43,452 nucleotides of DNA from Micromonosporaceae bacterium (lineage in GTDB: Bacteria; Actinomycetota; Actinomycetes; Mycobacteriales; Micromonosporaceae). Where the stretch lies: positions 1-43,452 of the forward strand of contig JAFGOK010000100.1 in the NCBI GenBank assembly GCA_016926535.1, in the 5' to 3' direction. Below are positions 8,336 to 33,927 of the stretch, in pieces. Within the stretch, counting starts at the first letter, position 1. Each line of letters begins with the position of its first letter. Both the position numbers and the translations under genes were made by a program. The notes below the pieces were generated by a model. It was not told where the DNA came from. It saw nothing but the letters and a program-made list of their open reading frames with translations, and searched no databases.

Positions 8336-9541
<1,206 letters not shown>

Positions 9542-12682: not shown

Positions 12683-15600
12683 TCAGGGAGAGAGTATTTG
12701 TTCGATGGTGGCGACGATCTGGCTCAACGCTGGTTCCGTGAACAGTGTGTAGTGGTCTCCGGGCAGGTCGTTACTCTGGAATGGTCCGGTACACACGGCC
12801 CGCCAGCGCTCTTCCAGGGCGGCGCGGGGCGAGGCGGCCAGCAGAGTGACCGGCCCGCCGTATGGGCCCGACGGGTGATAGCACTGCAACGCCAGCGCGC
12901 AACTCCGGAAGATGGCGTAGCGGTCGGTCAGCTCGGCGTCGCTGAGCTCCAGGTGGACGTCAAGTGACGCCAACGTCTTGCGGAGATCGGTCAGGTCGGC
13001 GGCCGGATCGTCCAGCACCGCGTGTACCGGCCGACCGTTCCGACCCGCGAGTCTTGCGACGTCGTGCACGAATCGTCGCCGCACCGTCAGCTCGTCGAGC
13101 GGGTCGGCGTCGCTGCCGTGTTCGGCGTCCAGCAGCACCACCGGCGGACGGGCGCCGGTGTCCTGCTCCAGCTGCCTGGCGATCTCGAAGGCGAGCACGC
13201 CTCCGTAGGACCAGCCGGTCAGACAGTATGACTCCGGCAGGTCTGTCGCGGCGAGCGTCCGCGCGATCCTGGTGGCCGTCGCCGTCAGACCGTCTCGGGC
13301 AGGTACGGTGGCATCTCGGAGATCGGCGGCGAATCCGGCTACGCCGATATCCGAACGCAGCGCTCTGACCAGCGGGATGTAGCAGAACAGCTCGCCGCCT
13401 GACGGGTGCAGCAGGATCACCCGCGCCGGACTGGGCGATCGCATCAGCACCGGGTCACCGCTGCGTTGTGCGGTGCGTACAGTGTCGATGGCGGCGGCCA
13501 GGTGCGCGACGGTGGGGGAGAGAAAGAAGTCGGTGAGCGTGATTTCCACCCCGAACCTGCGCTTGATTGCCGACATCAACTGGGTGGCCTGCAGACTGTT
13601 TCCTCCTGCCTGGAAGAAGTCGTCGTGCACGCCGAGCCGGTCATTGCGCAGCAGCGGGGAGAGCACGTCGTGCAGCAGCACCCTTTCGGTCGGAGTGCGC
13701 GGCTGGTTGCCTGGCCCGTTGTCCGCCGAGTTCAGGCTCGGCGCGGGCAGTCTGCGCCAGTCGACCTTGCCGCTGCTGGTCAGCGGAAGCTCGGGCAGGA
13801 CGACGAAGTACGACGGAATCATGTATGACGGCAGAAGTGCTCCAAGATGCTTACGCACCTCTGGCAGCTGCTGCTCTGTCACTCCGGTCAGGTAACCAAC
13901 CAGGTGCTTGTCTCCGGCGCCGTCGGTCCACGGTTGCACAGTGACCGACTCGACTCCGGTGACACTGGCCAACGCCGACTCCACCTCGCCGAGCTCAATT
14001 CGCAGACCACGGATCTTGACTTGCTGGTCAATCCGACCGAGGAAGACCAGCCGGCCGTCCGGCAACCGCTTCACCAGGTCGCCGGTCCGGTACAACCGCC
14101 CGGTCGGCGCGGTGCCGAATGGGTCGGCGACGAACTTCTCAGCGGTCAGTTCTGCCCGGTCGAGGTAGCCGCGGGCCAGCCCGGCACCGCCGATCACCAG
14201 TTCGCCCGGTACGCCAATCGGCACCTGGCGGAGGTTGCGGTCCAGCACGTGCGCGACGTGGTTGGCCATCGGCAGGCCGATCGGCGGGGAGGCGTCCCAG
14301 CTGCCTGGACACTCCTCGATGATCATTGTCACAGTGCACTCGGTCGGCCCGTAGCCGTTGAACAGTCGCCGGCCGCGATTCCACCGGTTCACCAGTTCGC
14401 CGCTGAACGCCTCGCCGCCAACGAACGCAATCCGCAACTCGGTGAACTTCTCCGGCGCCAGCAGCGGCATCACCGTCGGCGGCAGATCGATGACGGTGAT
14501 GCGGGCCCGCTCCATCAGCGACTGAAGGCGGTCGATGGATCGTCGCTCGTCGTCGGTGGCCAGGCACAATCGCGCTCCGGTCAGTAACGCGGAGAACGTT
14601 TCGAACACCGAGACGTCGAAGGTGACCGATGCGAACCCGAGCACCCGATCGGCCGGGGTCAAATCGAACAGCTCACGCGTGGAGTCAATGAAGTTGACCA
14701 CGCCACGATGTTCGAGCAGCACGCCCTTTGGCCGGCCGGTGCTGCCGGACGTGTAGATGATGTACGCGACGTCGCCGGGATCGGCGGCGAGCGGAGGGTT
14801 GGCGGTGGGCATCGCCATCAGGTCGGCACGAACGTCGTCCAGCACCACGACCGGTGCCGGGACCGCGTTCAGCGGTCCGGCGACCTCGGCATGCGCGAGC
14901 ACCGCACGCACGCCCGCGTCGCAGACGATTTCGGCGATCCTCATCGGGGGATGCGTCGGATCGAGCGGCACATAGGACGCACCGGTCTTGAGCACCGCGA
15001 GCATTGCCGTTGTCAGGTCCACATTCCTGCGCAGGCACAGCCCGATCCGCGTGCCCGGCGCTGCGCCGTGCTGGCGTAGCAGGGCGGCGAGCCTGTTCGT
15101 CCGAGCGTTGAGCTCTGCGTAGCTGGTCTCGACGCCCTCTACCAGGACCGCGACGCTGTCCGGCGACTCCGCCACCCGCGTCTCGAACTGCTCCACGATG
15201 GTAGTCTCGCGGACCGGACGGACCGGTCCACTGCTGACCCTGGCAAGAAACTCCCTGTCCGCAGGGCCCAGCATGTTCACCGCGGACAGGGGAACGTCCG
15301 GTTCTGCGGTCAGGGAACGCAGCAGTCCGTCGTAGTGCCGGGCAAATCTGGCGATGCTCTCCGCATCGAACAGGTCGGTGTTGTATTCGATCTCCAGCCG
15401 TCCATCGGCGCCGGGAACCGTTGCCGCCCGCACGTTCCAGCTCATGTCGAATCGGGAAACCCCAAGGCTAACCTGCTCCTCTGACGTCACAAGTCCCGGT
15501 AGGCCGGTCGGAGGATCGGCGTCCTGCTGGGTGAACACGATCTGGAAGATCGGCGACCTTGAGGGGTCGCTGGGCGGATCCACCGCGTCGATCAGCTTGT

Positions 15601-16708
15601 CGAATGGCAGATCATCGTGCGCGTGCGCGTCCCGCACCACGTGCTTGACCCGTCCGACCAGCTCGCGGAAGGTCGGATCGCCAGAGACGTCCCCGCGCAG
15701 CACCGCCATGCTGGCGAAGCATCCGATCATCCATGACACGGACTCATGCCGCCGGTTGGCGTCCGGCGAACCGATTACGAGGTCGTCCAGACCGGAGTAG
15801 CGGTGCAGCAGGGTGAAGAACGCGGCGACGAGTACGACAAACGGAGTCGCGCACACCTCGCGGGCCAGATCGTTCGCCTGGGACAGTCCCTGGTGTCCGA
15901 CCGTGAACCGGTCGACGGCTCCGGCCAGGGTCACCGTGTCACCCCGTGCCCGGTCGGTCGGGAACTCCAGCGTCTGCGCGTCTGCCAGGCTTTCCCGCCA
16001 GTGCGCTGCAAGGTTGTCCAGCTCAACGGGGCGAAGCCGATCGCGTTGCCACGCCGCGTAGTCCGGGTACTGCAGCTGAAGCGCAGGCAACTCCGGCTCG
16101 TCGCCGTCGCGCAAAGATCGGTAGATCTCGGCCAGCTCACCAGCCAGCACACCGATGGACCAGCGGTCGAACGTGACCAGGTGCGCATCGAACAGGAACA
16201 GGTGGTCGTCGGACTCCACCTTGATCAAAACCGCACGCCACAGCGGCGCCCTGCTCAGGGCGAAGGGGACTGGGATCCGTTCCGCTGCGAGAATTCGTGC
16301 CGCGGCGAGCCGCTGCTCGTGATGGTCGCCGGCCACCTCGATCAGGGGCAGTTCGACCGAGACCTCGGGGACGACGATTTGCACCGGACCGTCCGCGCGC
16401 TCGACGATTGCGGTCCGCAACGACGCGTACCGGGCCACCACTGCGGTCAGTGCCGAACGCAGCGCGCCCACATCCAGGTCACCCAGCAGCCGGGTGCACC
16501 ACGACGTGTGGTGGGCGGGGCCGTCAGGTGCCATGCGGTTGAGGAACCACCAGGTCAGCTGCTGGTGCGACAGCGGTGCCGGACCGGTGTCTCTGCGTGG
16601 CGTCGGGCCCTGACCGGCCACCTCTTGTGCCCGTGCCCGCAGCTGTGCGAGGAACTGCGTCCGGCGCTCTGCGGGCAGCTCTGCGAGGCGCTGAGTCATG
16701 TCGGTCAT
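12683..16708 (-). CDS. Nonribosomal peptide synthetase module, C-A-PCP-TE
   Basis: C-like domain with HLVTFDRWS in place of HHxxxDG; A-domain cores YIIYTSGSTGRPKGV, NGYGPTECT, GRLYRTGDL; PCP motif GGNSLQATQL; TE motif GWSYGG. Confidence 0.93.
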   Translation of the reverse strand: MTDMTQRLAELPAERRTQFLAQLRARAQEVAGQGPTPRRDTGPAPLSHQQLTWWFLNRMAPDGPAHHTSWCTRLLGDLDVGALRSALTAVVARYASLRTAIVERADGPVQIVVPEVSVELPLIEVAGDHHEQRLAAARILAAERIPVPFALSRAPLWRAVLIKVESDDHLFLFDAHLVTFDRWSIGVLAGELAEIYRSLRDGDEPELPALQLQYPDYAAWQRDRLRPVELDNLAAHWRESLADAQTLEFPTDRARGDTVTLAGAVDRFTVGHQGLSQANDLAREVCATPFVVLVAAFFTLLHRYSGLDDLVIGSPDANRRHESVSWMIGCFASMAVLRGDVSGDPTFRELVGRVKHVVRDAHAHDDLPFDKLIDAVDPPSDPSRSPIFQIVFTQQDADPPTGLPGLVTSEEQVSLGVSRFDMSWNVRAATVPGADGRLEIEYNTDLFDAESIARFARHYDGLLRSLTAEPDVPLSAVNMLGPADREFLARVSSGPVRPVRETTIVEQFETRVAESPDSVAVLVEGVETSYAELNARTNRLAALLRQHGAAPGTRIGLCLRRNVDLTTAMLAVLKTGASYVPLDPTHPPMRIAEIVCDAGVRAVLAHAEVAGPLNAVPAPVVVLDDVRADLMAMPTANPPLAADPGDVAYIIYTSGSTGRPKGVLLEHRGVVNFIDSTRELFDLTPADRVLGFASVTFDVSVFETFSALLTGARLCLATDDERRSIDRLQSLMERARITVIDLPPTVMPLLAPEKFTELRIAFVGGEAFSGELVNRWNRGRRLFNGYGPTECTVTMIIEECPGSWDASPPIGLPMANHVAHVLDRNLRQVPIGVPGELVIGGAGLARGYLDRAELTAEKFVADPFGTAPTGRLYRTGDLVKRLPDGRLVFLGRIDQQVKIRGLRIELGEVESALASVTGVESVTVQPWTDGAGDKHLVGYLTGVTEQQLPEVRKHLGALLPSYMIPSYFVVLPELPLTSSGKVDWRRLPAPSLNSADNGPGNQPRTPTERVLLHDVLSPLLRNDRLGVHDDFFQAGGNSLQATQLMSAIKRRFGVEITLTDFFLSPTVAHLAAAIDTVRTAQRSGDPVLMRSPSPARVILLHPSGGELFCYIPLVRALRSDIGVAGFAADLRDATVPARDGLTATATRIARTLAATDLPESYCLTGWSYGGVLAFEIARQLEQDTGARPPVVLLDAEHGSDADPLDELTVRRRFVHDVARLAGRNGRPVHAVLDDPAADLTDLRKTLASLDVHLELSDAELTDRYAIFRSCALALQCYHPSGPYGGPVTLLAASPRAALEERWRAVCTGPFQSNDLPGDHYTLFTEPALSQIVATIEQILSP

Positions 16709-17829
16709 CGGGAGCCCCTTTCGGGACGCGGCGCACCGATCATTTGGCGGTTCGGGCGAACGGGCAGTTGGGCGAGTTCCGAGATGGCAGTGGACAGCAC
16801 CTCGATGCCGCGCAGATAGTCCGACAGCACGATGTACTCGATGTCGGCGTGATCGAGGTGACTGTCACCTGGGCCGTACGTCGCCATCGGGATGTCCCAG
16901 ACTTCGGCGAGGGTGTTCATGTCCGAGGTGGCTGTCCTCACCAGCGACCGGGGTTGGGCGTGCAACCGCCGGATTCCGGACGTCAGCGCGCGGGCCACCG
17001 GGTTGCTCCGGCTCGCCCGGCACGCCTTCACCGAGTTCAGCACGTCGAGGTCACCCATTGGCAAGCGGCTGCGCAGCATGCGTACCAGTGTTTCGGCGTC
17101 GAACCCCGGCGGAGTCCGAACACTGAGGTCCACCGTTGCCGACGTCAGGTCGGCGTCGAGCCGGCAGAGCGTTGCGCCCGGTCGGGTGAACGTGCGGTGG
17201 CCGACGTCCGGTCCGAGCAGGTCGACCAACGCGGTCCAGGCGGTGACGGCCAGCTCGGATGCTTTTGGCGCCGGGTTGCTCGCGTGGGTGGCAGGGCACT
17301 TGACGGTGTAGCGCAGGTCGAGCTTGCCCCGGTACCCCAGTATCACGCTCGACCAACCGCTCGGCTCGCCGATGATGAGCGCATCCGGCCGGTCGTGGGT
17401 GGACCGGATCTCCATCGCCCCGCGGGATCCCGGCGTCTCCTCCTCGACTACGCCGATGACCACGATCCGCCCGGGGAGGTCGACGGCACCGGCCGTTGCG
17501 CAGATCATCGCCGCGAGCGGCCCCTTCGCGTCCACCGCGCCCCGGCCATAGAGCTTGCCGTCTTCGGAGCGGACCGGGAGCTGGCTTGGGACGGTGTCCA
17601 AATGTCCCAACAGCATCAACGTAGGGCCATCTCCGCGCTCGATCACGCCGATGACGTTGCCGACCACGTCGATGTGTGCTCGGAAACCCAGATCCGTCAT
17701 GGTTTCAACCAGGAAGCCGGCCAGCGCGCGTTCCTGATAGGACGGGGAAGGGATCTCCAGCATGCCACGCAGCAGTCCAACGGCGTACGTGTCGGTGACC
17801 GTGCCGGACGAATTGAAGGCCAGGTTCAT
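16705..17829 (-). CDS. M20-family peptidase/deacylase, LysK/ArgE/DapE-like
   Basis: GHLDTVPSQLPVRSEDGKLYGRGAVDAKGPLAAM metal-binding motif; ATG at 17829 overlaps the LysX-like stop; operon with LysX-like gene. Confidence 0.85.
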   Translation of the reverse strand: MNLAFNSSGTVTDTYAVGLLRGMLEIPSPSYQERALAGFLVETMTDLGFRAHIDVVGNVIGVIERGDGPTLMLLGHLDTVPSQLPVRSEDGKLYGRGAVDAKGPLAAMICATAGAVDLPGRIVVIGVVEEETPGSRGAMEIRSTHDRPDALIIGEPSGWSSVILGYRGKLDLRYTVKCPATHASNPAPKASELAVTAWTALVDLLGPDVGHRTFTRPGATLCRLDADLTSATVDLSVRTPPGFDAETLVRMLRSRLPMGDLDVLNSVKACRASRSNPVARALTSGIRRLHAQPRSLVRTATSDMNTLAEVWDIPMATYGPGDSHLDHADIEYIVLSDYLRGIEVLSTAISELAQLPVRPNRQMIGAPRPERGSR

Positions 17830-18704
17830 CGTTGCGTCCGTTCTACCAGGTACTCCACGATGCGGTCCGCGACATCGACCCGGCCGGCGAGCGCTGCTTG
17901 GAAGCCGGTGAACTCGACCCGGTGGTTGACCTCCAGCACCAGCAGTCGTCCGTCGTGGTCCTCGATCAGGTCGACACCGGCGATGTCCGCGCCGACGGCG
18001 GCGGCAGCATCGATCGACAACTTGGTGATCTCCGGTGTCACCTCGCAGGGCTGGGTCCGCGCACCGAGCGCCACGTTGGTTCGCCACAGTTCCCCGGCTC
18101 GGTAGACGGCGCCCAGCAGGTCACCGCCGACCACAATCACTCTGATGTCCCTGCTGGGCTTGTCGATCAGTTCCTGCACGTATCCGAGGTGCGCCTGCGG
18201 GCCGGGCAGTGCGGCGACGTATTCGAACACACCTTCTGCGGAAGCGCGGTCAAACAGTCGGACCACCAGCCGACCCCAGGAGCCGACCAACGGCTTGACC
18301 ACTGCCGGATAGCCGATGGAGTCCAGCGCTGCCAATGCGGCCTGCGGGGTGAGGCCGAGCGCCGTGCGCGGGGTGGCGATTCCAGCCGCCTGCAGCGCCA
18401 TCGTCGTGCGCCACTTGTCACCGCAAACCTCGGTTGCGTCCGCGTTGTTGACCACCTCGACTCCCGTCGAGGCGAGGCAGCGGGCTGCATACGCCGCGCG
18501 GACCTGCCCGATCTCCCGGTTCAATACGAAATTCCAGGAACGACCAGGCCCTCCGGCCAGGAACCATTGTTGTCGGGTGTCGATGTGGTCGAATGGAATA
18601 TTGCGTCGACCGAGTGCGTCGAACAGTCGTTTCTCATCCGCGCCGATCCGGCTGGCAAGGACGCCTATCCGACCGTCGCCCGGGTGCGTCGGTGTCGCTG
18701 ACAC
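17826..18704 (-). CDS. lysX: RimK/LysX-family ATP-grasp ligase (LysW-glutamate ligase-like)
   Basis: ELWRTNVALGARTQPCEVTPEITKLSIDAAAAVGADIAGVDLIEDHDGRLLVLEVNHRVEF is LysX-like. GTG start at 18704 with GGAGG. Confidence 0.85.
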   Translation of the reverse strand: MSATPTHPGDGRIGVLASRIGADEKRLFDALGRRNIPFDHIDTRQQWFLAGGPGRSWNFVLNREIGQVRAAYAARCLASTGVEVVNNADATEVCGDKWRTTMALQAAGIATPRTALGLTPQAALAALDSIGYPAVVKPLVGSWGRLVVRLFDRASAEGVFEYVAALPGPQAHLGYVQELIDKPSRDIRVIVVGGDLLGAVYRAGELWRTNVALGARTQPCEVTPEITKLSIDAAAAVGADIAGVDLIEDHDGRLLVLEVNHRVEFTGFQAALAGRVDVADRIVEYLVERTQR

Positions 18705-18752
18705 GTGACCTCCGTGGTAGCGCTGCTGATTGACCAGACGGCACAGGTGAAT

Positions 18753-18769
18753 TGCCGTGCTGGACGGCA
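18753..18769. promoter_or_regulatory. Inverted repeat TGCCGT-N5-ACGGCA in divergent intergenic region
   Basis: Perfect 6-bp arms about 50 nt upstream of the LysX-like start. Confidence 0.35.
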
Positions 18770-18981
18770 TGGTACGGGGATGTCGACGCCAGGCGCGTCC
18801 GCGACAGGTTCATTGACTGGGACGCATCACGTTGACGCTGTGCTTCGGTGTTGCGTGTTTCGCTTACCCGACCAAGTGTCGTCGATGCCTCGCGCTTGAC
18901 CCGTTTTCGGCCACCTGCCACGGTGATTCTCCGCTCGTTTCGCCCGGCTGCGCCAGCCGCACCAGTGGAAATGGAGAGATC

Positions 18982-19713
18982 ATGGAGCAGATGCCAGATC
19001 GGATACCGGTGATCGCACTATGGAGTGCGCCGCGCTGCCGGTCTACCGCTTTCGCACGGATGATGGCCGAGAGAGGCGACCGCGTCGTGGTGCACGAGCC
19101 GTTATCTCAGGTGGTCGATTTCGGCGAGGTGAAGGTCGACGACCGAATCGCGCACACCGAGCATGACGTACTCGCCGCGCTGCGTGCCATCGCGGCGGAG
19201 AAGCCCGTGTTCTTCAAGGACACCACGGACTTCCATTACCCGGGACTGCTCGCCGATCAGGCATTTCTGGCAGCCGCGACACACACGTTCATCATCCGAC
19301 ACCCTGCCGAGGCCATTGCGTCGCACTACCTGCTCAATCCGGACCTCGGGCGTGACGAGATCGGCTTCGCCCGGTTGCATGAGATCTTCAACGCCGTCCT
19401 GGTCGCCACGGGCACCACACCCGTCGTGATTGACGCAGACGACCTGGTGGACCGGCCAGCCGATACCGTGCGGGCATACTGCTCTGCGGTGGGCATCCCC
19501 TTTGTGCCGGATGCGCTGAGCTGGCAGTCGGGCATGCGACCGGAATGGCAGGCGACCGGTCGGTGGCACGAGTCGACCAGCAGTACCGTCGGCTTCACCC
19601 GGACCACGGACGGGCGGGTTGAGGTGGTCACAGAGAATCCGGTGCTGCGGGCCTACTGCGATTACCACCTTCCGTACTACGAGCAGTTGCGCACCGTAGC
19701 GCTTCGGCCGTGA
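18982..19713 (+). CDS. PAPS-dependent sulfotransferase-family protein
   Basis: 5'-PSB-like SAPRCRSTAFARMM, FKDTTDF, FIIRHPAEAIASHY; ATG with GGAGAG upstream; in-frame TTA codon at 19102-19104. Confidence 0.8.
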   Translation: MEQMPDRIPVIALWSAPRCRSTAFARMMAERGDRVVVHEPLSQVVDFGEVKVDDRIAHTEHDVLAALRAIAAEKPVFFKDTTDFHYPGLLADQAFLAAATHTFIIRHPAEAIASHYLLNPDLGRDEIGFARLHEIFNAVLVATGTTPVVIDADDLVDRPADTVRAYCSAVGIPFVPDALSWQSGMRPEWQATGRWHESTSSTVGFTRTTDGRVEVVTENPVLRAYCDYHLPYYEQLRTVALRP

Positions 19714-20499: not shown

Positions 20500-21582
20500 G
20501 TGGCAGGACACGTGATCGAGCAATCCCTGGTGGATCACACGGCGAATGGACAAGCGAGTAATGCCGCACTTGGGCCATTGTGTCCGTGCGGCGCGGAGGA
20601 GTCGGAGATACGCCAAGTGCCGATTCACTCGCTCTATGCTGCTGACTCACCGAGATTGGGCGGCGAGAATCCCGAACATACCCGGATACTGATGAAGGCG
20701 CAGGTTGAGTTGCCGCCCATCATTGTGCATCGGCAGACAATGCGGGTGATCGATGGAATGCATCGCCTTCGGGCCGCGCTTCTCGCTGAACGGGAAACGA
20801 TCGCGGTCCGGTTTTTCGACGGCAGCGTGGAGGACTCGTTCATCCAGGCGGTCGTGGCGAACAGCAAGCACGGACTGCCACTCTCGCTGGCCGATCGCAA
20901 GGCCGCCGCCGCTCGAATCGTCTCATCCCATCCACATTGTTCAGACCGATCAATAGCGGCCATTACCGGCCTTGCGCCGAAGACCGTCGGGGTCATCCGC
21001 CAGCTCGACGATGCCGGAGCGGCGACGGTGACCCGGATTGGCCGTGACGGCAGGGTGCGATCCTTGAACACCGTCGAACGGCGTCGTGTGGCGAGCGAAA
21101 TGATCACCCGACGGCCGGACGTCTCGCTTCGCACGGTCGCCCGGGAGGCCGGGATATCTCCGGCGACAGCTCGTGATGTGCGGGACAAGATGCGCGCGGA
21201 GGGGCGGTCACAACGGTCGGACGGGACGTTCCAGTCGCCGTCGCAGAAGGATCAGGGCCCGGAGCGCCCGGACCGGGAAAACGACCGCAGCCGTCGATCC
21301 GGGATACGCGACAAGACGGCTGTACTGGGCGGCCTCATGCGCGACCCGTCACTGCGGTTCACCGAATCGGGGCGGGCGTTGCTGCGCTGGCTGGTGTCAC
21401 GAACCGGCGGGCCGGAGGGGTGGAGCGAGTTCGTCGGCACGATCCCGCCGCACTGCCTGTACCAGCTTGCGGATCTTGCCAGGGCGTGTGCGACAGAATG
21501 GTTGCAGCTCGCCGATGACCTGGAGCAACGGACTGGGAAGACAGAGCCCATGGGATCAGTCGGCAGGTGTGCAACTGAGTAA
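20500..21582 (+). CDS. StrR-like transcriptional regulator with ParB/Spo0J N-terminal domain
   Basis: ParB-like block (PPIIVHRQTMRVIDGMHRLRAALLAERETIAVRFFDG) and HTH regions (SDRSIAAITGLAPKTVGVIRQL); GTG start with GGAGAG. Confidence 0.8.
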   Translation: MAGHVIEQSLVDHTANGQASNAALGPLCPCGAEESEIRQVPIHSLYAADSPRLGGENPEHTRILMKAQVELPPIIVHRQTMRVIDGMHRLRAALLAERETIAVRFFDGSVEDSFIQAVVANSKHGLPLSLADRKAAAARIVSSHPHCSDRSIAAITGLAPKTVGVIRQLDDAGAATVTRIGRDGRVRSLNTVERRRVASEMITRRPDVSLRTVAREAGISPATARDVRDKMRAEGRSQRSDGTFQSPSQKDQGPERPDRENDRSRRSGIRDKTAVLGGLMRDPSLRFTESGRALLRWLVSRTGGPEGWSEFVGTIPPHCLYQLADLARACATEWLQLADDLEQRTGKTEPMGSVGRCATE

Positions 21583-21775: not shown

Positions 21776-22366
21776 ATGGATATATCGGTGACCTCTGTCA
21801 TTACCCGATTCTGTGATCCGGTCGACATCTCCGATCACCGAAACAACACGGCCATTTCAGCGGCAACGAAGACCGAACTGGGACATTTCAATGTCTGGGG
21901 AAACTCGCTCGCCGCCGAGTACCTGCCGGCGGGTGGAAGTCTGGTCCACGTGGCCGGCATTCCGTTTCAATTCCCTCCGGTATGCGACGGACCAGACAAT
22001 ATCCGTTGCGCCGGGCAGTCTCTCAGAGTGTCGACGGGTCGTTACGACTGGATGCACGTGCTGGCGGCGGCGGAACGACGCTGTGAGGACATTGTTGAGC
22101 TAAGCTTCGTCGACGGCTCGGTCGACGCGGAAACACTGCGCGTCTCCGACTTCTGGGCCGCGCCCGCGTGGTTCGGTGAACTCAAGGCGTTTGAAAGCCC
22201 GGTCATGCACTATCCGCACCATGTGCAGCGGTTCGTTCCCGCGGTTATGTGGGCACAGCGAGTGCCGGTAACTCGGCGCGCCGATCTGACTGGTATCCGA
22301 CTGCCTCGCAACATCGCGATGCATGTCTTCGCGGTCACCCTCCAGCGGACGGAGGCCACGGCATGA
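21776..22366 (+). CDS. Hypothetical protein, candidate small subunit of aziridine-forming enzyme (AziU2/Vzb-like)
   Basis: Complete 196-aa ORF with no family motif I recognise; ATGA overlap with next gene; located between StrR-like regulator and aminotransferase. Confidence 0.5.
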   Translation: MDISVTSVITRFCDPVDISDHRNNTAISAATKTELGHFNVWGNSLAAEYLPAGGSLVHVAGIPFQFPPVCDGPDNIRCAGQSLRVSTGRYDWMHVLAAAERRCEDIVELSFVDGSVDAETLRVSDFWAAPAWFGELKAFESPVMHYPHHVQRFVPAVMWAQRVPVTRRADLTGIRLPRNIAMHVFAVTLQRTEATA

Positions 22367-23415
22367 GCACCGACCGACAGCCACAGACGTTCATGATCAC
22401 CGGATCCGAACCCGAGTTGTGGTATCGCGACCTGATCAGCTGCCTTCAGGCCACGTTCGGCTCGCTGTTGATCCGGGAGGGCATCGATCCACTGACCGTG
22501 CTCGGCGCGGGCTGGCGATTCCTGCACCTGCCCGGTGACGTCAGGTCCGAGGAGTTCTACTACCCGTGTGAGCCGGACGAGTCCGGCAACACCGACGTAG
22601 GTGCCGCGCTAGCACCGCACCACGACCTGCACTCGCGCTGGTGGTGCCCTGCCGATACGAACGACCTCTGGCGGGAGGTGCGTGACACGCTGGCCGACGA
22701 CCGATTGGTGATCGCCGCGGTGGACAACTTCCACCTGCCGTTCCGGCCAGCCTACAGCGACGTGCACGCCGCGCACCTCGTGGTGGTATACGGCCTGGAT
22801 GAGGTCCGCGGACTGGTGTACGTCTCGGACGCGATGCCGCCCGCGTTCTGCGGAGTCATCCCGATCGAGGTGTTCTCCCGCAGCTGGGGTTCGGCCAACC
22901 CGACCGACGTCCAGGACGCGTTCTTCAGTGACTCGCAGATCGGCCGGCGCTGCCTCGACGTCCGCCTCTCCGCCAAACCTCCCGTACTGACGCCCGAGTT
23001 GCTCGGCGAATTCCTGCGCGTCAACGTCACCGCCTTCACCACGGCGACCTCGGCGCGCACCGGTCTCGCTGGATTCGGCGAGTTCGCCGCCGAACTCCTC
23101 AACCGGTGCCGTGCCGGCGACGTCACCGTGTTGCGTGAGCTGTACCCGTTCGGCTGGGGCATGCAGGCGCAGGCATCGTTGCACGGGGAACTGCTGCGTC
23201 GCTGCGGTCATGAATGGAGTGACCCGGTGCTTGCCGGGGCTGGCCGGGCGGTCGAAACCGTCGCGCACGCGTGGACCGGACTCCGGATCACCGGCGCGCA
23301 CGGGGTCGACGATCCCGGTGCGGTCTTCGCCGATATCGCGCACCACGTCACGGTGCTGGCCGGTGCGTATGCGAGTGCGGTCGACGCCGTGGGCGCGGCG
23401 GCGGAGCGACTGTGA
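22363..23415 (+). CDS. Protein with BtrH/C39-peptidase-like N-terminal region; candidate AziU3-like partner
   Basis: [15 protein letters not shown] (Cys) ... [26 protein letters not shown] (His/Asp) resembles the BtrH N-terminal layout; coupled to upstream ORF. Confidence 0.5.
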
Positions 23416-23459: not shown

Positions 23460-24755
23460 ATGGGCAAACTGGCAGCGTTTGGCGGCCCTGCCGCCGTACC
23501 GAGGAACCGGCGCCGCGTGGACTGGCCGGTGATCGAGGACGCGGACCGCAAGGCCGTCATCGACGCACTCGACGGCGGCAGACTAGTGTCCAACACGGAT
23601 GGAACGAACCCGGTCTCCACCCTGGAGGAGCACTGGGCGCACCGGTTCGGCTTTGAGCACTGCGTTGCGGTGTCCACAGGCACCGCGGCACTGTCTCTCG
23701 CGCTGGCCGCAATCGGAATCGGGCCGGGCGACGAGGTGATCGTGCCCGCGCTCAGCTTCATCGCCACGGGGCTGGCGCCAGTGCACCAGATGGCCGTTCC
23801 GGTGTTCGCGGACATCGATCCGGTCACGTTCAACCTCGACCCGAACGACGTGGAGCGTCGGATCACTCCCCGGACCGCGGCGATCATTCCGGTGCACCTG
23901 CACGGTGCGCCGGCCGATATGGATCGACTGATCAGCATCGCCCGCAAGCACAGCCTCGCCGTGGTTGAGGACGCCGCGCAGGCCCCCGGGGCGACCCATC
24001 GTGGTCGGTCGGTCGGCGGGATCGGCGACGTGGGTGCGTTCAGCCTTCAGACCACCAAGAACATCCCCACCTGTGGTGAAGGCGGCCTGCTGGTGACCAG
24101 CGATGCCGAGTTGGCCCAGTCGATGCGCAGGGGACGGCAGTTCGGCGAAGTGATCGAGAGCGGCCGCGAGCGTGACTACGTGTCCTACGGCCTCGGCTGG
24201 AATCACAAGATGAACGCTGTCCAAGCCGCGTTCACCGACGCCCAGCTCACTCGGTTCGACGACTACGAATGCGCGCGACAACGCAACATCACCGAGTTTC
24301 TGGCGCGACTTGCGATGCTGCCCGGCTTGCAGGTGCCGACCGCCCGCCCGGAGACCACGCACGTCTGGCACATCCTGCGGTTCCGGTTCGACCCCGCCGC
24401 GTTCGATCTGGACCCGGTACGCTCGGAGGCCCTGCGCTCAACCCTGCGGCGGCTGCTGCGCGCCGAGGGCGTTCCGATGTCGCAGTACCAGCTCATGCCG
24501 CTGCCCGACCAGAAGGTGTTCGTCGATCGGATCGGGTTCGGCGCCGGCTACCCATGGTCGGTGATCGGCACCCCTGAACCGGTCAAGGATTCGGACTACC
24601 CGGTGACCCGCACGGTTATCGCCGACTCGCTGACCCTCCAGAAGCGCCATCTCCATCCGGGCTCAGGCGATCTCCTTTGCCGCTACGCGGACGCCTTCGA
24701 GAAGGTGTGGGCTAACGCCGACCTGGTGACCACACTCGTGGCGGCCGCGTCATGA
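23460..24755 (+). CDS. DegT/DnrJ/EryC1/StrS-family PLP aminotransferase
   Basis: [77 protein letters not shown]. Confidence 0.92.
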
Positions 24756-25594
24756 CCGGCGTCCAGGTCCCAGTGCGAGACACCCTGGAATCTCTCGCCG
24801 CACGCATCCGCTCGCACGTCGTCAACATGTGTGCTGGGCCGGAAGGTGGCCATCTCGGCGGCGCGCTGTCATGCATTGAGGTGCTCACCGCACTGTACTT
24901 CTCGGTGCTCAAGGTGGACCCGCAGCGGTCGGACGACCCGGCACGCGACCGCTTTCTGCTCAGCAAGGGCCACGCCGCCATTGCCCTGTACGCGACGCTG
25001 GCCGAGCGGGGTTTCCTTCCGGTCGAGGAACTCGCCGGATACGGACGGCCTGGCAGCAGGCTGATGGGTCATCCGGTCCGCGCGGTGCCCGGTGTGGAGT
25101 TGCCGACCGGGTCGCTCGGCCACGGTCTCGCGCTCGCCTGCGGGCTCGCTCTGGCCGCCCGATACGCCGGCCGTGACTCGCGCAGCTTCGTGCTGCTGGG
25201 CGACGGCGAACTCCAGGAAGGTTCGGTGTGGGAGGCTGCCATCGCGGCCGCGTCGCTCCGGCTGGACCGGCTGGTGGCCGTGGTGGACCGCAACGGCCTT
25301 CAGCTGACCGGTCCGACCGAGCGGATCGCGCCGATGGAGCCGATGGCAGAACGCTGGCGCGCCTTCGGCTGGGCGGTCCGAGACGTCGATGGGCACGACC
25401 TTCCCCAGCTGGCAGATCACCTCGCCGCAGCACCGTGGGAACCTGGTCGGCCGAGCGTTCTGATCGCCCGCACGGTCAAGGGCCATGGACTTCCGTTCCT
25501 CGCCGGTCGGGCAGCCAATCACTATGTGACGCTGTCGCCGCGCAACCACGCGCGGGCCATCGACGCGTTGCACAGCACGGACGCCGTCCGATGA
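24752..25594 (+). CDS. Transketolase N-terminal (TPP-binding) subunit
   Basis: [65 protein letters not shown]. Confidence 0.93.
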
Positions 25595-26559
25595 ACCGGG
25601 CGACCCGGGATGCCTACCGGGACTGTCTGCTGCCCTTGCTGAATCAGCATCCCGATCTGATCTGCCTGGACACAGACACCGGTCTGTTCGGTGCGCAGTT
25701 CGCCGCGGCAGCTGGCGACCAGTACCTGAACCTCGGCATCGCCGAGCACAACCTGATGGGTATCGCGGCCGGACTGGCCGCGGGCGGGCGAATGCCCTTC
25801 GTCAACACGATGGCCAGCTTCGCCGCATGCAGGGCGCTGGAGGCAATCAAGATCGACATTGCTTACAACCAGCTGCCGGTCCGTATCATGGCCACCCACG
25901 GTGGTCTCGCCGCCGGTCACCTCGGTCCGACGCACCAGGCCTTGGAGGACTTGGCCGTGCTTCGGGTACTGCCGGGCATGACGGTGGTGGTGCCGGTCGA
26001 CGCCGCCGCCACGGTGGCCTTCGTCAAGCAGAGCCTGGGTCTTGCTGGACCGCTCTACGTGCGACTCGGCCGTAAACCGTCGCCACCGCTGCCAGTGCTC
26101 CCCGCTCCGGTCATCGGGCAGGCTCAGACGCTGCGACAGGGTGCGGAGGTGCTGCTCGCGTGTTGCGGCCCGTTCGCGGTGCTCGGGTGCCTCACCGCAG
26201 CGGGAGCGCTCGCCGAACAGGGCATTGAAGCCACCGTACTGAACGTGCACACCCTTCGGCCGCTCGACACGGCGACCCTGGTCGCTGCGGCGCAACCGGC
26301 CACCCTTGTGGTGACGGTGGAAGAGCACTGGCGCGCGGGCGGTCTCGGGGGAGCGGTGGCCGAAGCACTGGCGGAGGCGGAGCCCAGGAAAGTGCTCAGG
26401 CTGGGCATGCCGGACCACTTCGTTGACGCCGTCGGCAGCCAGGAGTATCTCGTCACGCACTACGACCTCACCGCGGAGCGGGTCGTGAGGACGGTCAGCA
26501 CCGCTCTCGACAGCGCGGCCCGCTCCGGGACGATCAATCGAAAGGACCCAACGACATGA
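25591..26559 (+). CDS. Transketolase C-terminal subunit
   Basis: FLNLGIAEHNLMGIAAGLAAGGR-type motif (YLNLGIAEHNLMGIAAGLAAGGRMPFVNTMASF), GPTHQALEDLAVLRVLPGMTVVVPVD; ATGA overlap with previous gene. Confidence 0.93.
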   Translation: MNRATRDAYRDCLLPLLNQHPDLICLDTDTGLFGAQFAAAAGDQYLNLGIAEHNLMGIAAGLAAGGRMPFVNTMASFAACRALEAIKIDIAYNQLPVRIMATHGGLAAGHLGPTHQALEDLAVLRVLPGMTVVVPVDAAATVAFVKQSLGLAGPLYVRLGRKPSPPLPVLPAPVIGQAQTLRQGAEVLLACCGPFAVLGCLTAAGALAEQGIEATVLNVHTLRPLDTATLVAAAQPATLVVTVEEHWRAGGLGGAVAEALAEAEPRKVLRLGMPDHFVDAVGSQEYLVTHYDLTAERVVRTVSTALDSAARSGTINRKDPTT

Positions 26560-26729
26560 CCACAGTGCACATCTGTCCGAAGTGCGAGGACCAGGTTCAG
26601 ATCAGCCAACCAGCGCGACTCAATGAGATCGTCGAGTGCGCCGGCTGCCACTGCGAGCTGGAGATCGTGGCGCTGAATCCGCCGGTGCTGGCTCTCGCAC
26701 CCGAGGTCGAAGAGGACTGGGGGGAGTAG
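26556..26729 (+). CDS. lysW: LysW-like amino-group carrier protein
   Basis: Manual translation MTTVHICPKCEDQVQISQPARLNEIVECAGCHCELEIVALNPPVLALAPEVEEDWGE*; Cys pairs plus C-terminal EDWGE; ATGA overlap with the transketolase stop; too short for the ORF track. Confidence 0.93.
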   Translation: MTTVHICPKCEDQVQISQPARLNEIVECAGCHCELEIVALNPPVLALAPEVEEDWGE

Positions 26730-26769: not shown

Positions 26770-27795
26770 GTGATCCGGGTTGTGGTGGTCGGCGCGGCCG
26801 GCTACATCGGTGGGGAACTGCTGCGACTGCTGATCGGTCATCCCGAGGTCGAGACAGTGGCCGCGGTGTCTTCCCGCTTCCCTGGCAGGCGGGTCGATGG
26901 CGTGCATCCGAATTTGCGATCAGCCACCGACCTGCTGTTCTGCTCGGCCGACGACGTGGAAGAGTGCGACACGGCATTCCTAGCCCTGCCGCACCGCACC
27001 GCCATGGCCCAGATCGACCGCTGGATCGCAAGGGCCAAGCAGGTCATTGACCTCACCGGGGACTTCCGGTTGGGCGATCCAGAGGTATATCGGCGCTACT
27101 ACGGGAGCGAGCATGTCGCAACGCACCTAATCGACGCCTTCGTTCCCGGCATACCCGAACTACACCGGGAGAGTCTGCGCAGCGCCGATCTGATCAGTGT
27201 GCCTGGCTGCGTGGCGATGGCGGGCGTGCTCGCGTTGTACCCGCTGGCGGTGCGAGGTCTGGTCGAGCCGACGGCCCAGTTCGACGCGCGCACCGGCTCC
27301 AGCGGCTCCGGTGCCACGGCAGGTGCGGCGAATCTGCACTCCGTACGTAGCGGAGCGATGCGGGTGTTCGCACCGACTGGGCACCGGCACGAGGCGGAGA
27401 TCTCTCGACACCTCGGCATCGCAGCCGCGATGACCGCGACCGGAGTCGAAGCGGTACGAGGTGTGCAAACGATCTGCCACGCCACGCTGCGCCCCGATGT
27501 GGACACGTCGGCGGTGCGGAGAGCATTTCGCGAGCAGTACCGCAACGAGCCATTCGTCCGTCTGGTCGCCCACCAGCGTGGCAACTTCCGCTACCCCGAA
27601 CCGAAGATTTTGGTGGGATCGAACTTCTGCGATGTCGGATACGCCGTCGACGAGGAGGCCGGACGGCTGGTGACGATTGCGGCCCTGGACAACCTGATGA
27701 AGGGCGGTGCGGGCAATGCGGTCCAGTGCCTGAACATCCGGATGGGCTGGCCGGAGACTCTCGGCCTGTCCTTCCCCGGTCTGCATCCCATCTAG
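26770..27795 (+). CDS. lysY: LysY/ArgC-like N-acyl-gamma-glutamyl-phosphate reductase
   Basis: RVVVVGAAGYIGGELLRLLIGHPEVE, PGCVAMAG, GSSGSGATAGAANLHS, FAPTGHRHEAEI. Confidence 0.9.
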   Translation: MIRVVVVGAAGYIGGELLRLLIGHPEVETVAAVSSRFPGRRVDGVHPNLRSATDLLFCSADDVEECDTAFLALPHRTAMAQIDRWIARAKQVIDLTGDFRLGDPEVYRRYYGSEHVATHLIDAFVPGIPELHRESLRSADLISVPGCVAMAGVLALYPLAVRGLVEPTAQFDARTGSSGSGATAGAANLHSVRSGAMRVFAPTGHRHEAEISRHLGIAAAMTATGVEAVRGVQTICHATLRPDVDTSAVRRAFREQYRNEPFVRLVAHQRGNFRYPEPKILVGSNFCDVGYAVDEEAGRLVTIAALDNLMKGGAGNAVQCLNIRMGWPETLGLSFPGLHPI

Positions 27796-27817: not shown

Positions 27818-28660
27818 ATGGCCACCAGACCGCTGATCGTCGTCAAGTGCGGCGGGAACCCTGTCGTCGACGCCGCGGGAGTCTGCGCCGACGTAGCCGG
27901 GCTCGTTGGACGGGGACAGCCTGTGCTCCTGGTGCACGGGGGTTCCGGTGAGATCGCACGACTGGCGGCGAGACTCGGCATCCCGCAACGGACCCTGGTC
28001 GCCCCGGACCAGGTGTCCACCAGGTACACCGACCCGGCGACGCTGGAGGCGGTCATCCTCGCGCTGGCCGGTGCTGTCAAACCCAGGATCGTCGCGGAGC
28101 TGTCCCGGCTCGGGGTGCCGGCGGTCGGTCTCACCGGCTTGGACGGCGGCATGCTGCGTGCTCGCCGCAAGTCTGTCGTGCGCTCCGTTGTGGATGGTCG
28201 AAAGACGCTGGTGAGGGACAATTTGAGCGGTCGGCTCAGCGAGGTCGACACCACGCTGGCAAAGACCCTGCTGCGGTGCGGCTTCGTACCGGTGATCTCG
28301 CCACCAGCGATCGACGAGTGTGGTCACCCGGTGAACGTCGATGCCGACCGGGTGGCGGCAGCGCTCGCTGTGGCACTCGGCGCCGGTCATTTGGTGCTGC
28401 TGACCGGAGCACCGGGGGTACTTGCCAATTCGGAAGACGAGAGCAGCGTCTTGGGCGGTTACCAGGTGCCGATGGCCGGTGCGCCTGGCCGGTTCGCCGG
28501 AGGTGGCATGGCACTCAAGCTCGTTGCGGCCCGAGAGGCTTTGACCGGCGGCGTGCCGTCGGTGTGCATAGCGGACGGCCGGGTGTCTGACCCGGTCAGT
28601 CGGGCACTTGCCGGATCCGGGACCGCGGTCACCATGGCCCGCGTACAGCTTTCAGCATGA
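27818..28660 (+). CDS. lysZ: LysZ/ArgB-like acylglutamate kinase
   Basis: VVKCGGNPVVD, LLVHGGSGEIARLAARLG, YTDPATLEAVILALAG, NVDADRVAAALAVALGAGHLVLLTGAPGVL, GGMALKLVAAREAL. Confidence 0.92.
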   Translation: MATRPLIVVKCGGNPVVDAAGVCADVAGLVGRGQPVLLVHGGSGEIARLAARLGIPQRTLVAPDQVSTRYTDPATLEAVILALAGAVKPRIVAELSRLGVPAVGLTGLDGGMLRARRKSVVRSVVDGRKTLVRDNLSGRLSEVDTTLAKTLLRCGFVPVISPPAIDECGHPVNVDADRVAAALAVALGAGHLVLLTGAPGVLANSEDESSVLGGYQVPMAGAPGRFAGGGMALKLVAAREALTGGVPSVCIADGRVSDPVSRALAGSGTAVTMARVQLSA

Positions 28661-28673
28661 GAGGAGCAGTCAG

Positions 28674-29714
28674 GTGAGCTTGGTCAATGTGTATACGGAA
28701 TGGGATCCGCTTGAGGAGATCATTGTTGGAACGATGGCCGGCGCACGGGTGCCAATCGCAGACCGGAGTCTTATTGCCACGGAATACCCGGACCTCAACG
28801 ACCCACAGCAGATTCCCTCCGGACCGTTTCCCGGTCAGGTGGTCGAGGAGACCGAGGCCGAGCTCGCCGAGCTGGCGAACATTCTTACCGATCTCGGCGT
28901 GACCGTACGACGACCCGGCGGTCGTGATCATAAGTCGATGGTGTCCACTCCGGATTGGAGCACGGACGGGTTCTACGACTACTGTCCCCGGGACGGATTT
29001 CTCGCCGTCGGCGACTCGATCATCGAAACACCGATGGTGCTGCGGTCACGGTTCCTCGAGGGGTTCGCCTACAAGGAACTGTTCCTGGAGTACCTCGAAA
29101 GCGGTGCGCGCTGGCTCTCGGCGCCCAAGCCACAGTTGACCGACGACATGTACGAGCCGGGCGCGCCGGCGGGGCAGCGGCTGCGCAATCTGGAACCGGC
29201 CTTCGACGCGGCGAATGTGCTCAGGTTCGGTACGGATCTGCTGTACCAGGTCTCTGACAGCGGAAACGCACTCGGCGCGCGCTGGCTCCAGTCGGCCCTG
29301 GGCGAGCAGTACACCGTGCATCCGTGTGAGAACCTGTACACGGACACCCACATCGACTCGACCTTGGTGCCGCTGCGTTGCGGGTTGGTGCTGGTGAACC
29401 CGGCCCGAGTCAATGACGACAACATGCCGGCGTTCCTGCGCGACTGGGACCGGGTGGTCTGTCCGGAACTGGTGGACACCGGCTTCGTCGGTGACCACCC
29501 GAGGTCCTCGGTGTGGATCGGAATGAACTTCCTGGTCGTCGCGCCCGGGAAGGCTGTTGTGGACAAGCGACAGCTGGAGCTCATCCGGGTGCTGGAACGT
29601 CACGGCGTGGAAGTGATCCCAGCGCAGCTCACCCACACCAGAACCCTAGGCGGTGGCTTCCACTGCGTGACGCTGGACGTGCGCCGTGCTGGTGAGCTTG
29701 CCACATACCGGTAG
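28674..29714 (+). CDS. Glycine/inosamine-type amidinotransferase (StrB1-like)
   Basis: VNVYTEWDPLEEIIVGTM, TDGFYDYCPRDGFLAVGDSIIETPMVLRSRF, CENLYTDTHIDSTLVPLRCGLVLVNP, LGGGFHCVTLDVRR (catalytic Cys region). GTG start with GAGGAG. Confidence 0.9.
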   Translation: MSLVNVYTEWDPLEEIIVGTMAGARVPIADRSLIATEYPDLNDPQQIPSGPFPGQVVEETEAELAELANILTDLGVTVRRPGGRDHKSMVSTPDWSTDGFYDYCPRDGFLAVGDSIIETPMVLRSRFLEGFAYKELFLEYLESGARWLSAPKPQLTDDMYEPGAPAGQRLRNLEPAFDAANVLRFGTDLLYQVSDSGNALGARWLQSALGEQYTVHPCENLYTDTHIDSTLVPLRCGLVLVNPARVNDDNMPAFLRDWDRVVCPELVDTGFVGDHPRSSVWIGMNFLVVAPGKAVVDKRQLELIRVLERHGVEVIPAQLTHTRTLGGGFHCVTLDVRRAGELATYR

Positions 29715-29857: not shown

Positions 29858-30766
29858 GTGAGCCGAATGTTGTACCGCGTCTCCCACCTGGATGCGCTCG
29901 AAGCCGAGAGCGTGTTCATCCTGCGTGAGGTGGCCGCCGAGTTCGAACGGCCGGTTCTGCTGTTCTCCGGTGGCAAAGACTCGATTGTGATGCTCAAACT
30001 CGCAGAGAAGGCGTTCACCCCGGCGCGAATACCTTTCCCGGTGATGCATGTTGACACGGGACACAATTTCCCCGAGGTTCTCGCCTGCCGCGATCGGCGC
30101 GTTCGCGAACTCAACGTGCGACTCATCGTGGCCAGTGTGCAGGACGCGATCGACGCCGAGATGGTCCGGGAACCCGCAGACGGGATGCGCAACCGGATCC
30201 AGACACCGGTGCTTCTCGACGCCATTGGGAAGCACCGCTTCGACGCGCTTTTCGGCGGCGCCCGCCGGGACGAGGAGAAGGCCCGGGCCAAGGAACGGGT
30301 TTTCAGCTTCCGAGACGACTTCGGCCAGTGGGACCCGCGCAATCAGCGACCGGAGCTGTGGGCGCTGTACAACGCACGGATCGATCCAGGCGAGTCGATC
30401 CGGGTCTTTCCACTCTCGAACTGGACCGAACTTGACGTCTGGCACTACATCGCCAGAGAGCACATCGAGCTGCCGAGCATCTACTTCGCGCATGACCGCA
30501 AAGTGGTCGAGCGCGACGGCATGCTGTACGCGATCAACGACTTCCTGCCGATTCGGGGCGGAGAGACACCGTTCGTGGAACGGGTGCGATATCGCACGGT
30601 CGGCGATGCCTCATGCACCGCCACGGTGCGTTCCGACGCGGACAGCATCACGAAGGTGATCGACGAGGTCGCCGCGACTCGGATCACCGAACGCGGGGCG
30701 ACTCGTGGTGACGACAGGGTCAGCGAGGCGTCAATGGAAGACCGCAAACGTGAGGGGTACTTCTAG
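29858..30766 (+). CDS. cysD: Sulfate adenylyltransferase subunit 2
   Basis: LLFSGGKDSIVMLKLAEKAF PP-loop, GGARRDEEKARAKERVFSFRD, C-terminal EDRKREGYF. Confidence 0.95.
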   Translation: MSRMLYRVSHLDALEAESVFILREVAAEFERPVLLFSGGKDSIVMLKLAEKAFTPARIPFPVMHVDTGHNFPEVLACRDRRVRELNVRLIVASVQDAIDAEMVREPADGMRNRIQTPVLLDAIGKHRFDALFGGARRDEEKARAKERVFSFRDDFGQWDPRNQRPELWALYNARIDPGESIRVFPLSNWTELDVWHYIAREHIELPSIYFAHDRKVVERDGMLYAINDFLPIRGGETPFVERVRYRTVGDASCTATVRSDADSITKVIDEVAATRITERGATRGDDRVSEASMEDRKREGYF

Positions 30767-30768
30767 TG

Positions 30769-32058
30769 ATGGCCACATGTCAGGAGACGTCGCCGCAGCG
30801 GCCGGTGGACCTGCTGCGGTTTGCCACGGCCGGTTCCGTGGATGACGGCAAGTCGACGCTGATCGGACGGCTGCTGTACGACGCGAAGGCCATCTTCGCA
30901 GACCAGCTGGCAGCTGTAGAGGCGACATCCCGCTCCCGTGGCGACGACTACACCAATCTCGCGCTGCTCACCGATGGCCTGCGCGCGGAGCGGGAGCAGG
31001 GCATCACCATCGACGTGGCGTACCGGTACTTCGCAACGCCACAGCGGAAGTTCATCGTTGCGGACACGCCGGGCCACGTCCAGTACACCCGCAACATGGT
31101 GACCGGCGCATCCACCGCCGATCTGGCGCTGATCCTTCTGGACGCGCGCAAGGGCGTGCTGGAGCAGTCGCGCCGACACGCGTTTCTCTGCTCCCTGCTG
31201 CGCGTGCCGCACATGGTGCTCTGCGTCAACAAGATGGACCTGGTGGACTACTCGCAAGAGGTGTTCGACCGGGTAGTCGGCGACTTCAGCGCCTTCGTCG
31301 CGGAGCTCGACGTCCCGAGCCTGGTCATGATCCCCATCTCGGCCCTGCACGGTGACAACCTGGTCGACCAGAGCGGCAACATGCCGTGGTACGAGGGGCC
31401 AACCCTGCTGCACCACCTGGAACACGTCGCTGTGGCCTCGGACCACAACCTGGTCGACGTGCGCTTTCCGGTACAGTGCGTGATTCGACCGCAATCGACG
31501 TCCGCGTCCGACTACCGCGGGTACGCAGGTCAGATTGCCTCCGGCATCCTGAAGGCCGGCGACGAGGTGATGGTCCTACCATCCGGGTTCACAACGACGA
31601 TCAAGCGCATCGAAGCCGGTGGCAGCGAGGTGCCCGAGGCGTACCCTCCCATGTCGGTGACGATCCACCTGACTGATGAGATCGATGTGGGTCGCGGGGA
31701 CATGATCTGCCGGCCGGACGGTGCTCCGATCGTCGCGCACAACATCGAGGCGATGATCTGCTGGATGGACGAGTACCGCCCGCTGAAAGTCGGTGCCAGG
31801 TACGCGATCAAACACACCACCCGCTCGGTTCGGGCTGTGGCCAGCGATCTGCGGTACTGCCTGAATGTGAACACACTGCACCGGGACGCGTCGGCGATAC
31901 AGCTGTCGCTCAACGAGATCGGTCGGGTACGACTACGCACAGCGGCTCCGCTGCTGGCGGACGAGTACCGCTGCAACCGCACCACGGGTGGGTTCATCGT
32001 CATCGACGAAGGCACCAACCGGACCGTCGGCGCAGGCATGATCATCGGCCTGTCGTGA
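30769..32058 (+). CDS. cysN: Sulfate adenylyltransferase subunit 1 (GTPase), no fused APS kinase
   Basis: GSVDDGKSTLIGRLLYD, DTPGHVQYTRNMVTGAS, NKMDLVDY; about 430 aa with no CysC domain. GTG at 30766 is an alternative start. Confidence 0.95.
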   Translation: MATCQETSPQRPVDLLRFATAGSVDDGKSTLIGRLLYDAKAIFADQLAAVEATSRSRGDDYTNLALLTDGLRAEREQGITIDVAYRYFATPQRKFIVADTPGHVQYTRNMVTGASTADLALILLDARKGVLEQSRRHAFLCSLLRVPHMVLCVNKMDLVDYSQEVFDRVVGDFSAFVAELDVPSLVMIPISALHGDNLVDQSGNMPWYEGPTLLHHLEHVAVASDHNLVDVRFPVQCVIRPQSTSASDYRGYAGQIASGILKAGDEVMVLPSGFTTTIKRIEAGGSEVPEAYPPMSVTIHLTDEIDVGRGDMICRPDGAPIVAHNIEAMICWMDEYRPLKVGARYAIKHTTRSVRAVASDLRYCLNVNTLHRDASAIQLSLNEIGRVRLRTAAPLLADEYRCNRTTGGFIVIDEGTNRTVGAGMIIGLS

Positions 32059-32119
32059 GCGAGGCGCCCGACGTAGACCTGCTGATGCTGGGAAGTCCTC
32101 GGAGATTGGATCATTGGTC

Positions 32120-33181: not shown

Positions 33182-33927
33182 GTACCGCCGTGGCGCTGGA
33201 ATCGGTATCCATGGTGTACGGTCACGGGCGAAACGCGCTGCTCGCGCTGGACCAGATTTCGCTGACCGTACGCACCGGCGAGCTGGTTTGCCTGGTCGGC
33301 GCTTCCGGCTGCGGCAAGAGCACGCTGCTGTCCCTCATCGCCGGCCTGGACCGACCCAGCGGCGGCACGGTATGGGTGGACGGTGCGGGAACGCCGGGTC
33401 TGATGTTCCAGGATCCGGCGCTGTTTCCGTGGTTGAGCGTGGCCGGGAACGTGGAGTTGCCGCTGAAGCTGGGACGGGTGCCGCAGGACGTGCGTCGCCA
33501 GCGGTGCACCGAGTTGCTGGCTACCGTCCACCTGAGCGAGTTCGCCCGAAAGCGACCACACGAGTTGTCTGGCGGCATGCGTCAGCGAGTGGCGCTCGCC
33601 CGCACCCTGGCCCTGCACACACCGGTGTTGCTGATGGACGAGCCGTTCGGCGCGCTGGACGCCATGACCCGCGACCGGCTGCACGACGAGCTGGAACGCA
33701 TCTGGACCGAGCGTGGTCTCACCATCGTGTTCGTCACCCACAATGTCCGGGAGGCGGTGCGGCTGGCCGATCGGGTGGTGCTGCTGTCCAGCCGGCCAGG
33801 CCGGGTGATCTGGGAGCAGGTGGTGGATCTGCCACGACCACGACGCATCGACTCACCAGCTGCGGCAATCCTGGCCGCGGGGATCACCGATCGACTCCGG
33901 GCCGCCGTGGCATGCCATGACGACTGA
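33178..33927 (+). CDS. ABC transporter ATP-binding protein (SsuB-like)
   Basis: GASGCGKSTLLSLIAGL, LSGGMRQRVALARTLA, LLMDEPFGALD; GTGA overlap with SBP. Confidence 0.93.
   Translation: MSTAVALESVSMVYGHGRNALLALDQISLTVRTGELVCLVGASGCGKSTLLSLIAGLDRPSGGTVWVDGAGTPGLMFQDPALFPWLSVAGNVELPLKLGRVPQDVRRQRCTELLATVHLSEFARKRPHELSGGMRQRVALARTLALHTPVLLMDEPFGALDAMTRDRLHDELERIWTERGLTIVFVTHNVREAVRLADRVVLLSSRPGRVIWEQVVDLPRPRRIDSPAAAILAAGITDRLRAAVACHDD

Follow-up and report, generated by a model that had tools for sequence, protein, structure and literature searches.

The closest described relatives of the gene pair considered here are AziU3 and AziU2 of azinomycin biosynthesis (also termed Azi29 and Azi28), represented in the Protein Data Bank (PDB) by entries 7WUW, 7WUX and 8GS1. 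In one review AziU3/U2 is regarded as an aziridine synthase in function (PMC12559475). A second sets out a sequence in which diamino-dihydroxy-heptanoate (‘DADH’) is sulfated and an amine then attacks (PMC9570651). The ligand that accompanies AziU3/U2 in 7WUX is given as O7-sulfo-DADH (PMC11168924). This is a free amino acid, and it displaces the sulfated intermediate bound to an amino-group carrier protein (AmCP) that the original prediction had suggested as assay substrate. Two further systems serve as references. One is the butirosin acyltransferase, BtrH. The other is a ficellomycin-type cluster in the genome designated G173, in which two proteins are 100% identical, across alignments of 383 and 360 residues, to the two chains of the 8hk0 oxidase. 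We infer that 8hk0 and G173 both belong to ficellomycin, and that G173 is a ficellomycin producer.

The window, by which we mean the whole stretch of DNA analysed, comprises 43,452 nucleotides of contig JAFGOK010000100.1 (GCA_016926535.1), from a fragmented, 4.9 Mb assembly of the family Micromonosporaceae; its features are listed in Table 1. Two of its genes, referred to below as ‘U2’ and ‘U3’, very probably encode the two subunits of an AziU3/U2-type aziridine synthase in a ficellomycin-type cluster, as judged by sequence comparison. U2 begins with ATG at 21776 and stops at 22366; U3 begins with ATG at 22363, within the ATGA that the two genes share (22363–22366), and stops at 23415. The start of a DegT/StrS aminotransferase gene (23463) follows 48 bp downstream, and then the N- and C-terminal halves of a transketolase (24752 and 25588). 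The frames originally described, of 196 and 350 amino acids, overlapping by ATGA and situated upstream of an aminotransferase and a transketolase, are therefore confirmed by their coordinates, and both are intact. They are not chance open reading frames (ORFs), since both are kept as proteins across related loci, with protein identities of 71–82% in about 20 loci and of 33–65% in the remainder.

Table 1. Principal genes of the window, in order of position, with the evidence for each assignment (percentages are protein identities)
Feature	Position	Strand	Evidence
Short-chain dehydrogenase (SDR), probable ring-OH oxidation before amination	4683–5516	−	Pfam; 81% in G173
Second ATP-grasp ligase, beside L-amino-acid ligase	5513–6736	−	Pfam
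L-amino-acid ligase, ATP-grasp with LAL_C2	6739–8184	−	Pfam; 71% in G173
Class III aminotransferase, probable ring amination	8336–9541	−	Pfam; 79% in G173
Oxidase partner subunit, acyl-CoA-dehydrogenase-like, 8hk0_C orthologue	10434–11516	−	PDB E 4e-148, 71% identity
Oxidase subunit, acyl-CoA-dehydrogenase-like, 8hk0_A orthologue	11518–12672	−	PDB E 2.8e-206, 81% identity
NRPS, C-A-T-TE	12683–16708	−	Pfam
M20 peptidase-family AmCP hydrolase, LysK-like	16705–18087	−	Pfam PF01546 from residue 158
LysX-type ATP-grasp ligase on AmCP	17826–18770	−	Pfam LysX_preATP_grasp, RimK; TIGR02144 just below cut-off
Sulfotransferase, 243 aa, candidate O7-sulfate installer	18982–19713	+	PF19798
U2, AziU2 orthologue, small subunit, 196 aa	21776–22366	+	phmmer vs PDB
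U3, AziU3 orthologue, large subunit, 350 aa, N-terminal BtrH_N	22363–23415	+	phmmer, PF14399
DegT/StrS aminotransferase	23463–24755	+	Pfam E 1.5e-82
Transketolase N-terminal half, two-carbon extension to DADH skeleton	24752–25594	+	Pfam
Transketolase C-terminal half	25588–26559	+	Pfam
AmCP, LysW-type amino-group carrier protein, C-terminal EDWGE	26556–26729	+	Motif; TIGR01206 lysW above cut-off
LysY-type semialdehyde dehydrogenase	26770–27795	+	Pfam
LysZ-type amino acid kinase	27818–28660	+	Pfam
StrB1-type amidinotransferase, guanidino group	28608–29714	+	PDB 1bwd inosamine-phosphate amidinotransferase, E 2.6e-168
CysD-like sulfate adenylyltransferase subunit, sulfate activation	29858–30766	+	Pfam PAPS_reduct
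CysN-like GTPase subunit, sulfate activation	30766–32058	+	Pfam
MFS exporter, paired with FemAB-like gene in related clusters	36784–38460	+	Pfam
FemAB-like aminoacyltransferase	38473–39597	−	Pfam FemAB_like

When all PDB chains are searched with phmmer, U2 matches Azi28 (8gs1_A; E 4.6e-47) and AziU2 (7wuw_A; E 5.4e-47), its residues 16–193 aligning with residues 46–223 of AziU2, and the next match, at E 1.2, is not credible. U3 behaves in the same way. It matches AziU3 (7wuw_C; E 1.4e-72) and Azi29 (8gs1_B; E 2.3e-72), residues 12–348 aligning with 18–349 of AziU3, and the next match, at E 0.99, is again not credible. Identities are 44.5% between U3 and AziU3, and 45.5% between U2 and AziU2. 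The orthology of the two proteins, their pairing, the content of the cluster and the conserved residues are established here. The earlier statement that the smaller protein has no recognizable family holds for Pfam, NCBIfam and PADLOC, where a family search with U2 found none, but not for the PDB, where AziU2 and Azi28 are matched. The proposal of a two-subunit aziridine-forming enzyme is borne out by the comparison with AziU3/AziU2, made here by sequence: both subunits match, at E-values from 1e-46 to 1e-72, rather than U3 alone matching BtrH. Single-sequence AlphaFold models of the two proteins, with pLDDT values of 46 and 31, are too poor for comparison of folds. Overall, the evidence supports U2/U3 as a predicted enzyme of the AziU3/U2 family, a known one to which the pair adds a new member.

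The N-terminal part of U3 deserves separate discussion. A BtrH/C39-like layout had been noted in this protein; that layout is real (BtrH_N, PF14399, E 3.3e-26), with the match to C39_2 lying below the cut-off. An acyl-transfer or peptidase-like role had been put forward as an alternative to the aziridine role. On such a reading, U3 would be a BtrH-type acyltransferase, or a peptidase of the C39 kind, working on an intermediate attached to a carrier; U2 would be accessory to it, and some other enzyme would make the aziridine. Beyond the domain match, three residues of U3 could be cited in favor of this reading: Cys27, His135 and Asp156 do not vary in any of the 80 sequences compared, AziU3 included, and their order fits the layout of a papain-like site. 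However, the U3 protein of one related locus (L060) is 95% identical to the structurally characterized AziU3 and likewise scores as BtrH_N, so the domain is part of the aziridine synthase family and not a competing identity. Furthermore, the constant partner, U2, matches AziU2 and Azi28 only, and a profile built from 16 diverse U3 relatives finds AziU3 and Azi29 as its sole matches in the PDB (E 1e-140). DUF4872, which occurs alongside BtrH_N in some relatives (weakly, in L067 and L070), gives no match in the window U3 up to E 1 in Pfam. We consider an acyltransferase or peptidase identity very improbable. BtrH itself shares with U3 the whole of the BtrH_N profile (residues 27–156 of U3) and the conserved Cys, His and Asp; the window protein differs from it in having U2 as a constant partner and no detected DUF4872, and AziU3, its close homologue, binds a sulfated amino acid. 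Asp121, Asn122, Arg128, Asp133, His138, Arg196, His274 and Arg308 are likewise invariant among the 80 U3 sequences. For U3 as an aziridine synthase subunit, the invariant Cys–His–Asp set opens the role of the BtrH-like domain to testing with single mutants.

How constant the partnership is can be judged from related loci, of which 77 were found when a single genome was scanned for each species. U2 is present in 76 of these, the exception sitting on a contig of 3.5 kb, and wherever both genes are readable (76/76) U2 lies directly 5′ of U3 on the same strand. The gap between them ranges from about −30 to +95 bp, excluding two loci (L059 and L092) with a larger overlap whose length varies with the choice of U3 start, and coupled ATGA or GTGA motifs occur at the U2 stop codon in 41 of 76. 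Pairwise distances among U2 proteins follow those among U3 proteins closely, with a Mantel r of 0.935 that none of 2000 permutations reaches and that is due in part to the common descent of one operon. Adjacency and correlated divergence together lend support, at the level of sequence, to a two-subunit enzyme. One organism, Streptomyces sp. NRRL F-6131 (G397), carries two separate U2/U3 loci (L048 and L066) that belong to different clades.

Identity of only about 45% to the characterized enzyme, and a GC content of U2 (0.61) below the window average, might suggest instead a remnant, diverged or inactive, that no longer makes an aziridine. Yet both frames are intact, and wherever a column of the family alignments (79 sequences for U2, 80 for U3) reaches 95% identity or more, the window proteins have the most common residue. 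The remaining pathway is intact, too, and orthologues of ~80% identity occur in several genera. Decay of the pair is, we believe, scarcely credible.

Genes for steps that surround aziridine formation are found across most of the family. In most loci a Sulfotransfer_5 gene lies within 10 kb of U2/U3. Twenty-six seem to be without one at this distance, but 21 of them have one 10–35 kb away on the same contig and four (L044, L045, L088 and L090) have one on another contig; the last, L048, has no clear Sulfotransfer_5 gene near its U2/U3 locus, and a weak match elsewhere. A division of the family by presence or absence of the sulfotransferase was considered, and rejected because it arose for the most part from limiting the flanks to 10 kb. 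The apparent absence of AmCP from many loci proved, likewise, to be mostly a flank artefact, with three genomes excepted: AmCP was found in 20 of the 23 genomes checked, and none was found in the whole draft genomes of G396 (L045), G398 (L052) and G406 (L078), profile search included. U2/U3 are accompanied by NRPS and oxidase-like genes in these three despite the absence of AmCP; their precursor amino acid may come from another route, or the drafts may be incomplete. The aziridine synthase can now be viewed family-wide as a constant two-gene pair with a sulfotransferase almost always in reach.

In the window, the azabicyclohexane set is complete, consisting of the AmCP route, sulfotransferase, U2/U3, NRPS and oxidase pair. 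A few of these genes call for comment. The sulfotransferase match (Sulfotransfer_5, E 2.3e-18) was obtained with a longer ORF, 18832–19713, and the start at 18982 was picked by frame and conservation; searched against the PDB, this protein returns spurious antibody matches alone. The true start of the M20 hydrolase probably lies downstream of the start of its ORF. A code scan of the NRPS gives D-V-F-D..G..V-T for the A-domain pocket, which is common to relatives in the clade.

For the order of steps from release off AmCP to closure on the NRPS, and for the route to the guanidino group, the following scheme is a proposal; the reactions assigned to U2/U3 and to the oxidase are those that published work on AziU3/U2 and on the oxidase would suggest by analogy. 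AmCP would carry glutamate, which LysX, LysY, LysZ, the split transketolase and the DegT aminotransferase would convert to DADH. The M20 hydrolase would release DADH from AmCP, and the sulfotransferase would then sulfate its C7 hydroxyl. O7-sulfo-DADH would be bound by U3/U2, where the C6 amine would displace the sulfate, in an intramolecular SN2 reaction, to form the aziridine. The oxidase pair would dehydrogenate the NRPS-bound unit, and addition of the aziridine nitrogen to the β-carbon would produce the 1-azabicyclo[3.1.0]hexane. Finally, the SDR, class III aminotransferase and amidinotransferase would install the guanidino group, and the pathway would end in ficellomycin or a close congener.

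Several neighboring genes may contribute. The CysD and CysN homologues (29858–32058) may be the source of activated sulfate. They are followed, within 29858–34804, by genes for a sulfonate/nitrate-type ABC transporter (substrate-binding protein, ATPase and permease), and the two groups together may help to activate the sulfate that the sulfotransferase uses. A 360-aa protein (20500–21582), ParB/StrR-like on inspection and weakly matched to helix-turn-helix domains, is a probable pathway regulator; none of the 77 related loci matches it. A 222-aa protein of no known family (9605–10273) has counterparts of ~75% identity in G173, G431 and Herbidospora, and of 32–46% in some distant U2/U3 loci, and is a candidate tailoring or self-resistance gene. 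Two TldD/PmbA-like proteins occupy the left edge (691–3374), and were not found in the examined stretches of G173, G444 and G431.

The window also has a guanidino tailoring set (amidinotransferase, SDR and class III aminotransferase) with counterparts in G173. Nearly all of the pathway genes lie in a syntenic block in that genome, at ~70–85% identity (CysD 66%; CysN 54%). Because the G173 oxidase is a 100% match to 8hk0, and the clusters are syntenic, ficellomycin or a close congener is the most likely product. U2/U3 could be an aziridine synthase in a pathway to an azinomycin- or vazabitide-type product instead, as both biosyntheses are described as sharing the DADH-to-azabicycle logic (PMC9570651). 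But the pair groups with G173, the source of 8hk0, and not with the azinomycin-like clade (L058–L062), and the amidinotransferase, SDR, class III aminotransferase and ligase, 71–84% identical to those of G173, fit a guanidino-bearing product; on this comparison with G173 and the azinomycin-like clade, a product of either of those types is unlikely. With a ficellomycin-type assignment, the window places a complete pathway for a DNA-alkylating azabicyclohexane in a Micromonosporaceae genome.

Some genes set the window apart from G173. The FemAB-like gene and its MFS partner occur together also in Micromonospora sp. NBRC 107566 and in two Herbidospora clusters (L031 and L035); in Herbidospora they are flanked by LysZ and the class III aminotransferase. 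No FemAB match was found in the whole genome of G173. The second ATP-grasp ligase has a 76% orthologue in Micromonospora sp. NBRC 107566 only, among the nine genomes checked, and none was found in G173. Tentatively, and with more doubt than confidence, we suggest that the FemAB-like protein and this ligase might add at least one amino acid to the azabicycle dipeptide, and that the product might be an undescribed, extended congener of ficellomycin. The FemAB-bearing subgroup is, in any event, a concrete lead to new congeners. Flanking the MFS and FemAB-like genes are those for an iron–sulfur CCG-domain protein (34818–36986) and for ETF β and α subunits (39642–41714), which probably serve housekeeping electron transfer at the edge of the cluster, or else act as an electron sink for the oxidase pair.

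Compared with the described systems, then, what is new here is the Micromonosporaceae host, the invariant Cys–His–Asp of U3 and the FemAB-like gene common to four clusters. The pair resembles AziU3/AziU2 of azinomycin biosynthesis in the full-length homology of both subunits, in the adjacency of their genes, and in the sulfotransferase and AmCP-route genes alongside. It differs in being only about 45% identical and in belonging to the presumed ficellomycin-producer clade rather than the azinomycin clade. The window has in common with the ficellomycin-type cluster of G173 the amidinotransferase, oxidase pair, NRPS, SDR, aminotransferase and ligase. It departs from that cluster by the addition of the FemAB-like, MFS and second ATP-grasp genes, by a partly rearranged gene order, and by its Micromonosporaceae host.
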